Made by a program: the position numbers and the translations under genes. This document shows, one piece after another, positions 748 to 6,436 of a DNA stretch of 6,436 nucleotides. This DNA is from Candidatus Zhuqueibacterota bacterium (lineage in GTDB: Bacteria; SM23-31). Location of the stretch: the NCBI GenBank assembly GCA_022562855.1, contig JADFON010000112.1:1-6436 (forward strand), given 5' to 3'. Position 1 is the first letter of the stretch. Each line of letters opens with the position of its first letter. The notes under the pieces are model-generated. The model saw only the letters and a program-made list of their open reading frames with translations. It was not told the DNA's origin and did not search any database.

Positions 748-2154
748 ATGAAAATACGAAATTCAATTATTTGTATAGTGCTGGCTTTTACTTTTTTCCC
801 GCATAGCGCTTTTTCGCAGGGCAGATTGAAATTCGCATTGGATATAGCAAAGTTCAGGGCAAAAAACGGGCTGACCTATCTTGAAATTAACACTTCCATT
901 CCGAGAAATATTTTAAAATATGAGCTGGTAGAAGACAGACTGGAAAGTAACTTCGAAATTGAAGTGAAAGTTTTTATGGGTGAAACGGAGATCTTTAACG
1001 AAACTTATCTGAAAACTGCGATTGCTGGCAACTTAGCTGAAATTGACGACACAGAGAAGATTCTGAACAGGGTCAAGCTCTATATGAAAAAGGGCGAATA
1101 TGACCTGAAAGTAAAGGTAACCGATCTTGGCGCGCAAACAACTTCCGAGTTGGTCATACCCGTTTCAGTGGATCCATCCGACTTTGAAGGATTTGCTTTG
1201 AGCGATATTGCTTTGGCGACATCTATTCAAAAATCTACAACTGAAAACGAATTTTACAATAACGGTTACATGGTTGTTCCGAATCCTGAGGGGATTTTCG
1301 GAAATGAGCTGCAGCTTCTTTATTTTTACACAGAGATATATAATTTAAAATTTGAAAGTCCTTCTGACGCGGCGACGTACAATGTTTCTTACTTCATTAC
1401 TTCGGGTACAGGGGAAATTGTAAAAACATACCCTCCGAAAACCCGAAAAAAACCGGGCGATTCAAGCATCGAGGCAGGCAGGATAAGCGTCAGGGGATTC
1501 CAATCGGGGAGATATAATTTACATCTCAAGATCGTGGACAATGAATCGGGCGATACGGTAGAAAAGCAGAAGGAATTTTACATTTTGACCAATAATGCAG
1601 CTGCAAATGTTACCGGTGTCACTACCGGCGCAACACTCCAGGAAAGAATCGCGATGGAAGAGTCACAGCTTGCCAATATGGATGAGGATGCCTTGAAAGA
1701 ATTTTTTGAACAAATGGTTTACGTTACTAACAACGATGACAAAAATGCATTCAAATCTTTTGCGCTGCCGGAGAAGAAAAGAATGCTTGCCGTGTTCTGG
1801 GCGGAAAGGGACCCTCAACCGGAGACACTTGTCAATGAATTCAAACAGGAGTATTTTGCGAAAATTACGTATACCAACAATCAATTCAGAGAATTCAGAC
1901 CGGGATGGAAAACCGACCGGGGCAAAATACATATCAATTACGGGAAACCGGATTTTGTTGAATATTTTTCCAATACTGCCGGTATGAAACCTCACCAGAT
2001 ATGGTATTATTACGACTCTACAATTGAGACCACCGACAGAGTTTTACAATTTATATTTGCCGACATGAGACAGGCTAATGTTTACGATCTAATTCATTCT
2101 ACTGCGGTAAGAGAAATGCATAATGAAGATTGGAGGGAATTAATTATAAAGTAG
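748..2154 (+). CDS. Gene A: secreted GWxTD domain protein, beta-domains first
   Basis: Exported 468-aa protein of unknown biochemical function. Residues 1-23 form a signal peptide (basic MKIRN, hydrophobic core, likely cut after AFS before Gln24). Residues about 28-145 form beta-domain 1, with motif KFRAKNGLTYLEI (35-47) and closing strand KKGEYDLKVKV. Residues about 150-280 form beta-domain 2, with LSDIALA (151-157), FYTEIYNL (193-200) and a closing GRYNLHLKIVD strand. After a linker (about 281-300) comes the GWxTD domain: FWAERDP (350-356), NE (363-364), GWKTDRG (386-392), YGKPD (398-402) and IWYYY (418-422). The domain ends close to the C-terminus. It has no TPRs, unlike the two neighbours, and its domains run in a different order from theirs. 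It converges on gene B with 25 bp between stops. Family assignment is strong by motif; an envelope or periplasmic location is inferred from the signal peptide. No lipobox cysteine is seen at the cleavage site. Confidence 0.92.
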   Translation: MKIRNSIICIVLAFTFFPHSAFSQGRLKFALDIAKFRAKNGLTYLEINTSIPRNILKYELVEDRLESNFEIEVKVFMGETEIFNETYLKTAIAGNLAEIDDTEKILNRVKLYMKKGEYDLKVKVTDLGAQTTSELVIPVSVDPSDFEGFALSDIALATSIQKSTTENEFYNNGYMVVPNPEGIFGNELQLLYFYTEIYNLKFESPSDAATYNVSYFITSGTGEIVKTYPPKTRKKPGDSSIEAGRISVRGFQSGRYNLHLKIVDNESGDTVEKQKEFYILTNNAAANVTGVTTGATLQERIAMEESQLANMDEDALKEFFEQMVYVTNNDDKNAFKSFALPEKKRMLAVFWAERDPQPETLVNEFKQEYFAKITYTNNQFREFRPGWKTDRGKIHINYGKPDFVEYFSNTAGMKPHQIWYYYDSTIETTDRVLQFIFADMRQANVYDLIHSTAVREMHNEDWRELIIK

Positions 2155-2179
2155 AATACGTGTTGCAGATTATCCACGA

Positions 2180-4264
2180 TTATTTTCTTATCGTAATCTT
2201 TCTTGTTGAGGTTGATTTTTCACCGCTGACCTTGTCTTCCACGGAAATTGTTATGTTGGTATTCATTTCCGGCAGGTTGCTGATATCAAGGGCAATAAGC
2301 TCGTGAACTATTGTCTTATTTCCTCTTCTTTGTTCGGTAACCGATATTTTCTCGACACCACCGCCCGTAAAAAGTCCGCCGATTTTTTTGAATAACCCGG
2401 TTACGGTACCGGAATTCGATTTATCCCTTTCAATACTATACTCTATATCATACCTGGTTGTATTGTTCCGGTCAAGGCTCAGATTATATATCTCGAAATA
2501 CATTACCAATTGCTGTGATTTATATAAATACGAAAACGGGTACGGTTTCATTGTGAGTTGTTTCCGTGTGTCCGTATCGGTAAATTCTGCCTGCCTGGTT
2601 CCGGTCGATATTCGGATGTCGCTTATCATCAGACTATCCGCACTGTAGTCTTTGATAGTAATTTCCGGCTGATAGATGCCGAGAAGCGGTGTGTTTTCCT
2701 GGATTAACTGTATTCCAAAAGTATAATCGCCGGGTCTGAGTTCAAGGATCTCCATGTTCAATACATATTGGTCTTTGTTGTCATCACGCGACCGCGCCAG
2801 TTGACTGTACGTGATTTCGTCACTCCTTGCGAAATTCGAATCGAGAGCGACGACGTGTGATTCTACATAAACCGACGGAGACTCCTCAATCTCACTAAAT
2901 TGAAGATTTTCAAGCGGTATACCGATGTATACTTCAATGTCTGTTTTGCCGTCTTCGCCTTTGAACTGCGAGTACGACCAGGGAAAATCAAGCGGTTTTT
3001 CTTCAAAATCGAGAATAAAATTTTGAGAAGGGGCGTTCGCAATAGCAATTGTGCGGAGCTCACTGTTGGAATAAGCAATCCTGTACGGCATAATTCCACG
3101 TGAAGAGGTAAATTGATACGTCAAATACTGGTCAATCCGAACATATTGCCACAATTCACTTAGTTCTCTGTCATCGGAAGTAAAACTCCTGTACCTCGGT
3201 TCTCCGAATTTTATATAAATCTCACCCCGGTCGTCGTATCCCCGGTAGTTTTTTTCATCAAATATTGTCTTCGCATACATGACGCGCCTGAAGTGTTCCA
3301 ACAGGCGTTCGTTATCCTTAGTCATCACGTTCGGATCGTTTTTTCGCCAGAAACCGGCGATGTAGGTTCCCCGTTGTTCGAAAGGCAGAGAATCATATTC
3401 CTCCCGTTCTATATCTGTCAGGACCCACTTGAAGTCCCGGAAGATGTCATTCAGAAGATCGCGGTTGTCCAATTCGTCAAGCCCTTCGAGATAAGTTCTT
3501 GTGGCGTCCTCTAACTGACCGGTATTGAAATAAGTAAGACCGATGTAAATTTTTGCCGGGTTGTGATTTTTGTTTAACCGGAGTTCCTTTATTAGATAGT
3601 CTTCCGCTTCTTCATAGCGCCCAAGTTCGTAATGTGCTTTTCCAAGTAAGAAATGAGTTTCCGGGAAAAAGGGTTCTCTTTTTATCAGGTCTTCCAGAAC
3701 AATTATTGCGTTGTCAAAGTTTTTCCCTTTGCTCTTAGCGGCGTCGGCTTTTTCCATGTGGGCTTCGGCAATATGCAGAACGGCTTCATGATAGGTAGAG
3801 TCTATACTCAATGCTTTTTCAAATTCTCTTATCGATTTTGAATAATTGTCTGAATTTGTTATTCTCCTGAATGCCCCAAGAAGCGACAGGTAATTAGCGC
3901 CTTTTTTCAGATAAACCAATCCGAGACCATTATGAGCCGGCGCTTGGAGATCGTTTATTTTGAGAGAAGATTTGAAAACCGCCTCCGCCGAATCGAGATT
4001 ATCGTACTCGATGAGTATTCTGCCGAGACCATTGAGAGCACCGGTGTCCATTGGATCAACGTTCAACCGTTCCATGTACATACGATAATCGGGGGCAAAC
4101 CGCATTTCCTTTCGGAGTTTCAGACCCTCTTCAATAAATAACAGACTGTCGGATACTTCGTCCTGGATAAGCGCAGCTCCCCGTGAGGGCATCGATATTA
4201 ACATGACTACCGCTGCCAGGAAGGTAATTACTAAATTAAATAGACGATCTTTGGCTTGATTCAT
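2180..4264 (-). CDS. Gene B: exported TPR-GWxTD protein with degenerate GWxTD motif
   Basis: 694-aa protein. Residues 1 to about 31 form a signal peptide (MNQAKDR, then a hydrophobic stretch ending near SRGAA). About five TPR-like units span 75-267; the clearest are 201-233 (HFLLGKAHYELGRYEEAEDY) and 235-267, and the second unit is split by an insert near 121-140. The GWxTD-like domain follows: FWRKNDP (305-311), NER (318-320), RGYDDRG (341-347) in place of GWKTDRG, IKFGEP (351-356) and LWQY (371-374). Beta-domain 1 (about 427-540) has QFKGEDGKTDIEVY (433-446) and RPGDYTFGIQL. Beta-domain 2 (about 541-694) has ISDIRIS (547-553) and YFEIYNL (589-595). The start at 4264 is chosen because the signal peptide begins there; upstream only a weak GGAAAG (4282-4277) is visible, about 12 bases away, so translation initiation may be weak or coupled. 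It is a paralog of gene C, lying 205 bp downstream of it. The role is not known; TPRs suggest protein-protein contacts. Confidence 0.92.
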   Translation of the reverse strand: MNQAKDRLFNLVITFLAAVVMLISMPSRGAALIQDEVSDSLLFIEEGLKLRKEMRFAPDYRMYMERLNVDPMDTGALNGLGRILIEYDNLDSAEAVFKSSLKINDLQAPAHNGLGLVYLKKGANYLSLLGAFRRITNSDNYSKSIREFEKALSIDSTYHEAVLHIAEAHMEKADAAKSKGKNFDNAIIVLEDLIKREPFFPETHFLLGKAHYELGRYEEAEDYLIKELRLNKNHNPAKIYIGLTYFNTGQLEDATRTYLEGLDELDNRDLLNDIFRDFKWVLTDIEREEYDSLPFEQRGTYIAGFWRKNDPNVMTKDNERLLEHFRRVMYAKTIFDEKNYRGYDDRGEIYIKFGEPRYRSFTSDDRELSELWQYVRIDQYLTYQFTSSRGIMPYRIAYSNSELRTIAIANAPSQNFILDFEEKPLDFPWSYSQFKGEDGKTDIEVYIGIPLENLQFSEIEESPSVYVESHVVALDSNFARSDEITYSQLARSRDDNKDQYVLNMEILELRPGDYTFGIQLIQENTPLLGIYQPEITIKDYSADSLMISDIRISTGTRQAEFTDTDTRKQLTMKPYPFSYLYKSQQLVMYFEIYNLSLDRNNTTRYDIEYSIERDKSNSGTVTGLFKKIGGLFTGGGVEKISVTEQRRGNKTIVHELIALDISNLPEMNTNITISVEDKVSGEKSTSTRKITIRK

Positions 4265-4329
4265 TCTTGTATAATTCTTTCCAGAGATTGTTTGTTGGCG
4301 GAAATACGTTTTAAAGATTTCTCAGCCTG

Positions 4330-4380
4330 CCTGCCCCGAAGTAGGGCCTGCCCCGTAGTAGGGCTTGCCCCGTAGTTGGG
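4330..4380. repeat. Three tandem 17-bp repeats, each a small hairpin
   Basis: Three head-to-tail 17-base units: 4330-4346 (CCTGCCCCGAAGTAGGG), 4347-4363 (CCTGCCCCGTAGTAGGG) and 4364-4380 (CTTGCCCCGTAGTTGGG). Neighbouring units differ by one or two bases, and a partial fourth unit (CCTGCCA) starts at 4381. In every unit GCCC pairs with GGGC across a 7-base loop (4333-4336/4344-4347, 4350-4353/4361-4364, 4367-4370/4378-4381). The differences between units fall in the loop or outside the stem, and none breaks the stem. Confidence 0.9.
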
Positions 4381-4383
4381 CCT

Positions 4384-4456
4384 GCCACTCTGTGGCTCCG
4401 TTTTTCGGAGGCTTCGTTCGTCACGTAGTGATCCCTTATGGGAAAATGACATTTTC
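4384..4456. repeat. Chain of five short dyads next to the tandem repeats
   Basis: Five perfect small inverted repeats follow each other almost without gaps: GCCAC-TCT-GTGGC (4384-4396), CTCCG-TTTTT-CGGAG (4396-4410), TCAC-GTA-GTGA (4421-4431), TCCC-TTAT-GGGA (4432-4443) and GAAAATG-A-CATTTTC (4442-4456). With the three tandem units this makes eight dyads in about 125 bases. The pattern suggests a structured interspersed element or a folded RNA region in the C-B transcript. I do not recognise a named family. Confidence 0.75.
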
Positions 4457-4469
4457 TAAAGTCGAATTA

Positions 4470-6436
4470 TTAATAAATCAGGATTTTCGACGATTTTTCG
4501 ACCGTTTGACCGGTGCGCAAATCGGTTATTGTAATCGTAAGGTTATATTCTCCAACATCGGTTATGGAATGTTGAATCGAGAGGATACGTTTATCGGTAC
4601 TTCCCACGGTGGTAATTTCGGATGACACTGTTATCCTGTTTTCTTCTGTTTCACTTCCGAGTAATCTTGACAATATCCCCTTCTTTTCCTCTACCGGGTA
4701 GAGTGAATACTCAATCCGGTACCGGCTTTGGTCTTGTTCATTAGCCGAAAAAAGATTGTAAATCTCGAAGTAAAAATATACGGGCTGTTTTTGCGCAAAC
4801 CGGTGATAAGGATTTGCCAGTATATCGAGATTCTCTCTTGAAGGAAGCGCCTCCGGTTGTGTCAGCCGGATATTATCCGCAATGAGTATATCGCTGATTT
4901 GCAGGTCTCCGCCGGTGAATGATTCGACAATCAATGTGCCGCGAAAAGTTCCCGTGTTGCCGGACGCCGGGTCGACAAGTTCAACAGCGAGATTGTACTC
5001 GCCTTCGTCAAGCTCAAGAACCCGGTCGAGTGTGAAAAACCGGTCTGTGACCGATTCAACTGCGGTTTCATTGAACCTGAGATTTATCGTGTCGATATGT
5101 TCCTCTATTTTATCCCAGTCTTTGTCAAACAAAAAGACACCATGTTTCAGCGACCCTGTCAACTCACCCATTCTGTCGGGGGCGGGATCAAGTTCGATGT
5201 CGTTTAACCGGGAACTGTAATATACCATAACATCGGTTTTATCTTCATTTCCGCGGAATTGAACAATGTCGACAGGGAATGAGAACATCCTCCCTTTCGG
5301 CTTGTATGTGTAGAGATCATTGTATTGTTTGAACAATTCTTTCTCGTCCGGAAAATCGGGCTCCATTGTTTCCCTGGTATGTAGTTCGAAAATTTCTGAT
5401 ATTTCTGTAAATTGGGTAGTAAATTCAATTGAAAAACCATCGTAATACCAGTACCGATATTTATGATAAGCAGCTGAAAACAATCCCTTTTTTATCACTT
5501 CTCTAATCCTGTTCGGTCTGCCGTATCGTATCCATATCCTTCCCCTGTCTGTTTTCCATCCCGGCAGGTTTCTTTCCGGTACGGAGAACCGCAGGTTTGC
5601 TTCCGCTACCCTTCCGTAGTGCTCGAGTTCCCGTTCATTGTACGGTGTTAAAAACAACGGGTCTTTCGGTTTCCAGAAGTTTTCCTCTGCAACTACCTGA
5701 AGTGTTTTTGTCATTTTCCATAGATCAAGATCGAAAAACGGATGCACATAATCGACACTTTCAAATATTTCCCGTTCATCGGGTGTCATTAGTTTTTTAG
5801 CGGTTTGATAATACATGTTCGATGTGTCGTGTTCCCCTTTAAGAGCGTAACCCAACCCGAGAAACAAGTTGGCGTCTTTGTCGTCATCGTAGAGGGCTAT
5901 TATAGTCTTAAACATTTCAATAAAGGTGTCGTAATCCCCAGCTTCCAGCGTGATCTTTCCTTTCCTGAATAAGGCTCCCCTGTTTTTGAAATCGAGATCA
6001 AGAATCCGGTCGTTCATGTATAACGCACCTTCGTACTCCTGCATAGCGAACCCACTGAAACCGCGTTCGGAACGGTACATCCATTGATCGAATTGATCTG
6101 CATAAAATAAGGCAAGTTTTTCCATTACCGATACGTCTTCCGGATCCAATTCTAAAATATTTCCGTATATTCTGCCGGATTCCAATTTGTATTTTTGCTT
6201 TTTGCGAACGTCCCCAAGCGCATGAAGATATTTCGTATTCTCCGGATCGATCTTCAAAGCATCTTCAAGCGCATACTGCGCCCTCATTCTCGCATTTATC
6301 GAACTCTTTACCGAATCAACCGCCATGTAACACAACCCTATTGCATAGTGCGCATCGGCAAATTTTCTGTCCTTGCCGACTGCTTTGTCGAATAGTTTGA
6401 TAGCGGCTTTGAAATCGCCTGACTGCTGCAGGGCGA
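4470..6436 (-). CDS. Gene C: TPR-GWxTD protein, 5' end outside the window
   Basis: The frame is open to the window edge, so this is a partial gene: 654 residues are visible (numbered here from the edge) and the N-terminus, including any signal peptide, is missing. A TTG at 6335 is an internal Leu codon within a TPR, not a start. Residues 1 to about 215 are TPR-like (for example DFKAAIKLFDKAV at 7-19, ALEDALKIDPENTKYLHALGD further on, and LFLGLGYALKGEHDTSNMYY near 190-209). The GWxTD domain has FWKPKDP (253-259), NER (266-268), GWKTDRG (292-298; codons 5561-5541), IRYGRP (302-307) and YWYYDG (328-333). Beta-domain 1 (about 385-505) has QFRGNEDKTDVMVY (392-405) and DEGEYNLAVELVD. Beta-domain 2 (about 507-654) has ISDILIA (513-519), YFEIYNL (555-561) and a final GEYNLTITITD strand. 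It is the closest relative of gene B in the window and keeps the canonical GWKTD that B has lost. Function unknown; a TPR scaffold and export to the envelope are inferences from the family and gene B. Confidence 0.9.
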   Translation of the reverse strand, partial: ALQQSGDFKAAIKLFDKAVGKDRKFADAHYAIGLCYMAVDSVKSSINARMRAQYALEDALKIDPENTKYLHALGDVRKKQKYKLESGRIYGNILELDPEDVSVMEKLALFYADQFDQWMYRSERGFSGFAMQEYEGALYMNDRILDLDFKNRGALFRKGKITLEAGDYDTFIEMFKTIIALYDDDKDANLFLGLGYALKGEHDTSNMYYQTAKKLMTPDEREIFESVDYVHPFFDLDLWKMTKTLQVVAEENFWKPKDPLFLTPYNERELEHYGRVAEANLRFSVPERNLPGWKTDRGRIWIRYGRPNRIREVIKKGLFSAAYHKYRYWYYDGFSIEFTTQFTEISEIFELHTRETMEPDFPDEKELFKQYNDLYTYKPKGRMFSFPVDIVQFRGNEDKTDVMVYYSSRLNDIELDPAPDRMGELTGSLKHGVFLFDKDWDKIEEHIDTINLRFNETAVESVTDRFFTLDRVLELDEGEYNLAVELVDPASGNTGTFRGTLIVESFTGGDLQISDILIADNIRLTQPEALPSRENLDILANPYHRFAQKQPVYFYFEIYNLFSANEQDQSRYRIEYSLYPVEEKKGILSRLLGSETEENRITVSSEITTVGSTDKRILSIQHSITDVGEYNLTITITDLRTGQTVEKSSKILIY

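Follow-up and report, generated by a model that had tools for sequence, protein, structure and literature searches.

GWxTD proteins fall into two classes with three common modules in rotated order

The GWxTD proteins are a family known from models in NCBIfam (TIGR04514) and Pfam (PF20094) but otherwise unstudied, and a literature search on the domain found no paper. Besides the family itself, three described systems come closest to the proteins analysed here. Natural circular permutation, which passes through duplication, fusion and truncation, leaves the same modules in cyclic order and takes tandem copies as its raw material. RbmA of Vibrio cholerae, a biofilm scaffold (PDB 4kkq, 5g50), is made up of two successive FnIII-like sandwiches. 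The type IX secretion system (T9SS) has the SprA/Sov translocon, the PorV shuttle and PorZ among its outer-membrane parts, and SprA and PorV are established parts of the translocon (PMC10994853).

The stretch of DNA analysed (hereafter the window) spans one whole contig of a draft genome, 6.4 kb long, and carries three genes. Gene A (748-2154, forward strand) encodes a protein of 468 amino acids made up of a signal peptide, two beta domains (beta1 and beta2) and a GWxTD module. Genes B (2180-4264) and C (4470-6434) lie on the reverse strand. The 694-residue B protein starts with an N-terminal signal or transmembrane segment, followed by a TPR region, a GWxTD-like module, beta1 and beta2, and the C protein (654 residues, its N-terminus cut by the contig end) comprises TPR, GWxTD, beta1 and beta2. 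A and B are convergent, and the same convergent layout is seen in another genome, G011 (L129 1902-7480).

We consider it probable that these proteins represent two ancient GWxTD classes, in which the same three modules were rotated relative to one another by one swap and which would serve as exported outer-membrane adaptors. The domain swap itself is a new and well supported fact about the family, and our literature search found no description of two domain orders among GWxTD proteins; the mechanism of the swap and the function of the swapped proteins are what we infer from the material below.

Homology and fold of the modules

The original prediction held that A, B and C have three modules in common that can be matched by short motifs, and every motif it quoted was found, in the order given. 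In A, KFRAKNGLT (residue 35), SDI (152), EIYNL (196) and YNVSY (211) precede FWAERDP (350), DRG (390) and YGKP (398). The two sets are exchanged in the other proteins: FWRKNDP (305), DRG (345) and FGEP (353) come ahead of QFKGEDGKT (433), SDI (548), EIYNL (591) and YDIEY (605) in B, as do FWKPKDP (253), DRG (296) and YGRP (304) ahead of QFRGNEDKT (392), SDI (514), EIYNL (557) and YRIEY (572) in C. The literal GWxTD motif is present as GWKTD at residue 386 of A and 292 of C; B lacks it and reads GYDDRG instead.

The GWxTD module spans residues 308-450 of A (1669-2097, forward strand), 262-400 of B (3065-3481, reverse strand) and 216-345 of C (5400-5789, reverse strand). All three proteins pass the 28-bit cut-off of TIGR04514 (102, 59.7 and 62.4 bits, respectively), whereas the 26.9-bit cut-off of PF20094 is exceeded by A (62 bits) and C (31.3 bits) and missed by B (21.8 bits), which is called GWxTD-like because of its TIGR04514 score and its homology to A and C. 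Both models cover just the GWxTD module in these proteins. The beta pair is matched by no Pfam or NCBIfam model at its cut-off, and constitutes a conserved part of the GWxTD family for which there is no existing model. Pfam TPR models pass their cut-offs in both B (about residues 60-262; 3479-4087, reverse strand) and C (residues 1-215; 5790-6434, reverse strand), and the AF2 helices of the latter resemble TPR structures. The original prediction needs two small corrections: the motif of B is degenerate, and the TPR region is an optional N-terminal addition that lies outside the swapped core. At four loci elsewhere (L044, L124, L130 and L109) the module HMMs match GWxTD in two separate stretches, which suggests an insertion within the domain.

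Beta1 occupies residues 28-143 of A (829-1176, forward strand), 427-540 of B (2645-2986, reverse strand) and 385-505 of C (4920-5282, reverse strand), and beta2 follows at residues 148-281 of A (1189-1590), 541-694 of B (2183-2644) and 506-654 of C (4473-4919), on the same strands. Both domains of B were recognized by HMM, beta1 also by BLASTP to A, and those of C by BLASTP to A. In pairwise BLASTP the beta domains of A (residues 24-279) align with residues 380-653 of C (E 1e-11), and its GWxTD module (317-429) aligns with residues 221-339 of C (E 4e-12), so that both parts are paired in opposite order, just as had been proposed from beta1-beta2-GWxTD in A and TPR-GWxTD-beta1-beta2 in B and C. 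A and B are matched in GWxTD (E 3e-11) and more weakly in the beta region (E 4e-5). Judged from the sequences, the motif and module matches between A and B/C are far above chance.

Comparison of profiles, each built exclusively from rows of its own class, extends this result. With hhalign the beta pair of the A class matches that of the C class at 99.95% probability (E 1.8e-37) over 260 columns; profile similarity, whose absence would have spoken against the original prediction, is clearly present. Against the C-class profiles of the separate domains, the probability is 99.3% for beta1 with beta1 and 99.7% for beta2 with beta2, with the crosses at 30-94%, and the internal order of the beta pair is therefore kept in both classes. 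Beta1 and beta2 may themselves be old duplicates of each other. Could the beta domains of A and B/C instead be unrelated sandwiches, alike through chance or a generic Ig/FnIII resemblance? The fold is a common one, and the moderate crosses between beta1 and beta2 (up to 94%) are what such a resemblance would give, but like-with-like matches lie far higher and keep their advantage in independent profiles. The pair is moreover aligned end to end, the SDI, EIYNL and YxVxY motifs are common to both classes, and A and C already find each other by single-sequence BLASTP, leaving this explanation with next to no chance of being correct.

Predicted structures agree with the sequence comparison. In the AF2 models of A (mean pLDDT 88.8, pTM 0.61) and C (mean pLDDT 84.6, pTM 0.75) the two beta pairs contain an identical run of strands, located at residues 30-141 and 155-280 of A and 388-503 and 517-653 of C. 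According to these models the beta pair is an FnIII/Ig-like tandem with RbmA as its closest counterpart. Tandem FnIII structures of RbmA are among the best Foldseek matches (E 1.6e-9 for A and 3.4e-8 for C), and A compared with RbmA gives a VIA Z of 10.7 over 197 residues (rmsd 9.7), single sandwiches giving Z of about 10-11 at rmsd 2.5-3. Two successive FnIII-like sandwiches are thus found in both, but identity is 9-14% and the inter-domain orientation differs (rmsd about 10 Å across both domains). The Pfam model for RbmA-like FnIII domains (PF22021) scores 12.8 and 14.1 bits against a cut-off of 27, and the beta pair is therefore described as fold-like and not placed in that family; the likeness is one of fold alone, with no sign of a shared function. 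When the profiles of GWxTD and of the beta pair were searched against PDB sequences, no convincing relative emerged. The helix-plus-strands pattern in the second half of GWxTD raised the suspicion of a BamE/SmpA-like fold, which was rejected (hhalign probability 0.1 against one E. coli BamE sequence).

Two domain orders and their inheritance

Per-module HMMs were run on loci of the window's genome and its relatives, together with 80 loci from named genomes that were the best matches to the GWxTD module of A and were retrieved with the GWxTD alignment. Among 159 proteins with both modules the order is strictly one or the other, 92 being beta-beta-GWxTD and 67 GWxTD-beta-beta, and a beta pair flanks GWxTD on both sides in none of the 159. 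This split into two classes supplies a basic architecture for the GWxTD family. The named loci were picked by similarity to the GWxTD module of A, and the phylum distribution that follows is therefore biased and no unbiased census. Beta-beta-GWxTD proteins were found in Bacteroidota, Ignavibacteriota, Calditrichota, KSB1, Gemmatimonadota, Kryptonia, Marinimicrobia, Zixibacteria, Cloacimonadota, Fermentibacteria and Eisenbacteria, and GWxTD-beta-beta proteins in Acidobacteriota (including the isolate Pyrinomonas methylaliphatogenes), Aminicenantes and Coatesbacteria. Both orders occur side by side in the window's own class and in a few other genomes.

The rotated proteins vary at their N-termini. 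Some have no N-terminal module (L196, L176), others carry CarboxypepD_reg ahead of GWxTD-beta-beta (L120 243-3377, on contig C286 of the window's genome, and L111 97-3486), and one carries a beta-propeller in this position (L112). Two subtypes of beta-beta-GWxTD protein can be told apart at the C-terminus, one having a tail with the pattern HS[TN]...E...W (A-like) and the other being tailless; the tailless subtype frequently takes the upstream position in tandem pairs.

How often has the order changed? On the tree of the GWxTD module it switches once, against a mean of 51 with shuffled labels, and the core-GWxTD and beta-pair trees show three changes each, of which the strongly supported (starred) branches force a minimum of one. 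In AU tests on balanced 84-row sets, a tree with all rotated proteins in one clade was not rejected (p 0.67 for the beta pair, 0.27 for GWxTD), and a deliberately mixed control set was (p 2e-52). From the one to three changes and the AU results it follows that the order is deeply inherited and not freely flipped, and we infer that the swap happened once. The module trees are unrooted, with weakly supported deep branches, so neither order is callable as ancestral.

The original prediction had also suggested that the modules work as a unit, perhaps packed together, whose order can vary. A tight unit with an order free to flip often would account for the existence of two orders and for the several combinations in which the modules occur. 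The order is, however, inherited near-perfectly, with one to three changes in 150-159 proteins where shuffled labels give about 50, and linker lengths are strongly variable. Repeated reshuffling is rejected on the number of changes on the trees, and we would give it a very slight chance at best. Packing of the modules as a unit also found no support. The linker between the beta pair and GWxTD measures 0-34 residues in one order but can reach 268 when the order is reversed (negative lengths reflect overlapping HMM edges), and the beta pair also occurs without GWxTD. The model of A, with its low pTM (0.61) despite high local confidence, does not suggest a fixed module arrangement either. A single, deeply inherited swap remains the probable reading. 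The modules are homologous and stand in cyclically rotated order, as expected of whole-domain circular permutation, and the GWxTD proteins provide a clean natural case in which whole domains were rotated, apparently once, and the result was then inherited.

A possible route to the rotation

The rotated order could most simply have arisen if two tandem beta-beta-GWxTD genes fused, which would have brought the GWxTD module of the first copy ahead of the second copy's beta pair. Once the outer parts of the fused protein were lost, GWxTD-beta-beta would have been left, and the GWxTD end freed by the swap could have taken N-terminal partners such as TPR, CarboxypepD_reg or a beta-propeller. Gene arrangements make this route from tandem genes through fusion and trimming a plausible one: head-to-tail pairs of beta-beta-GWxTD genes on the same strand are found at 7-8 loci from several phyla, and in these pairs the GWxTD module of the first gene lies directly ahead of the beta pair of the second. 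The duplicated or fused ancestor that had been proposed is compatible with these present-day tandem genes and with the clustering of the orders on the trees, but a fused beta-beta-GWxTD-beta-beta intermediate was found in none of the relatives surveyed. The cyclic order of the same modules and the tandem copies as raw material are shared with natural circular permutation as outlined above; the rotation of whole domains and the lack of an intermediate among these relatives set the present case apart.

Module distances have the sign predicted by tandem fusion. The GWxTD module of the rotated class is 26.8% identical to that of upstream and 25.5% to that of downstream tandem genes, and its beta pair 16.7% identical to that of downstream and 14.4% to that of upstream genes, differences so tiny that the comparison is too weak to use.

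Alternatively, the two classes may have been assembled independently, free GWxTD and beta-pair genes having fused twice, once in each order, with no rotation involved. Candidate pieces exist, in the form of free-standing beta-pair proteins with signal peptides and no GWxTD (L099 3303-4301, L046 1411-2385), a TPR-beta-beta protein without GWxTD (L099 4358-5707) and possible GWxTD-only ORFs, and the unrooted trees fit two opposite fusions equally well as a rotation. Free modules are nevertheless rare, the genomes that have them are rich in fused proteins, and they look as though they arose by secondary loss; tandem beta-beta-GWxTD pairs, the raw material for a rotation, are commoner. We hold independent assembly to be possible but unlikely, and rotation through tandem genes remains the reading followed here.

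Genome neighbours and a possible role at the outer membrane

GWxTD genes of both orders adjoin genes for outer-membrane proteins. At eight loci a beta-beta-GWxTD gene is preceded, at a distance of 16-244 bases, by a PorV/PorQ-family gene. At seven Marinimicrobia loci the gene immediately upstream encodes a PorZ-like propeller (under its Pfam cut-off), and at seven acidobacterial loci (Terriglobia) the rotated gene is followed directly by the gene for a CarboxypepD_reg protein. PorV-family and PorZ-like neighbours recall the outer-membrane parts of the T9SS. A contig of G011 runs from PorV through two successive beta-beta-GWxTD genes to a convergent TPR-GWxTD-beta-beta gene, an order that resembles A and B.

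The window's genome contains SprA and eight PorV-family matches. Across 59 genomes, GWxTD is present in all 15 with SprA (SprA_N over its cut-off) and in two without an SprA match (G005 and G039), and 42 have neither protein. The association has a Fisher p of 3e-12 when genomes are taken as independent, and shared ancestry confounds it. Both GWxTD classes occur in bacteria with type IX secretion machinery. No T9SS sorting domain was matched in A, B or C with NCBIfam, and the literature search turned up no paper in which a GWxTD protein is counted among the T9SS components.

The outer-membrane neighbours and the co-occurrence with SprA favour, at modest confidence, a role for GWxTD proteins as exported adaptors of the outer membrane with a link to surface-protein export. 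The FnIII-like pair and the GWxTD module would act at the outer membrane by binding partners there, in the vicinity of PorV/PorQ-type barrels, of CarboxypepD_reg outer-membrane proteins and of the type IX secretion translocon. The SprA co-occurrence and the PorV, PorZ and CarboxypepD_reg neighbours together give this widespread family a testable function. More speculatively, both orders might be unrecognised outer-membrane accessories of a T9SS-type surface export that extends to many phyla beyond Bacteroidota, with one rotation having enabled the uptake of N-terminal TPR, CarboxypepD_reg or propeller modules for different substrates; we regard this wider reading as doubtful.

Two of the beta-beta-GWxTD genes, one on contig C280 of the window's genome (L117 935-2358) and one at L163 1698-3081, are split into two overlapping frames, through either assembly errors or frameshifts. 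Past L117, C280 carries a TPR-GWxTD gene on the same strand whose product is 42% identical to B.
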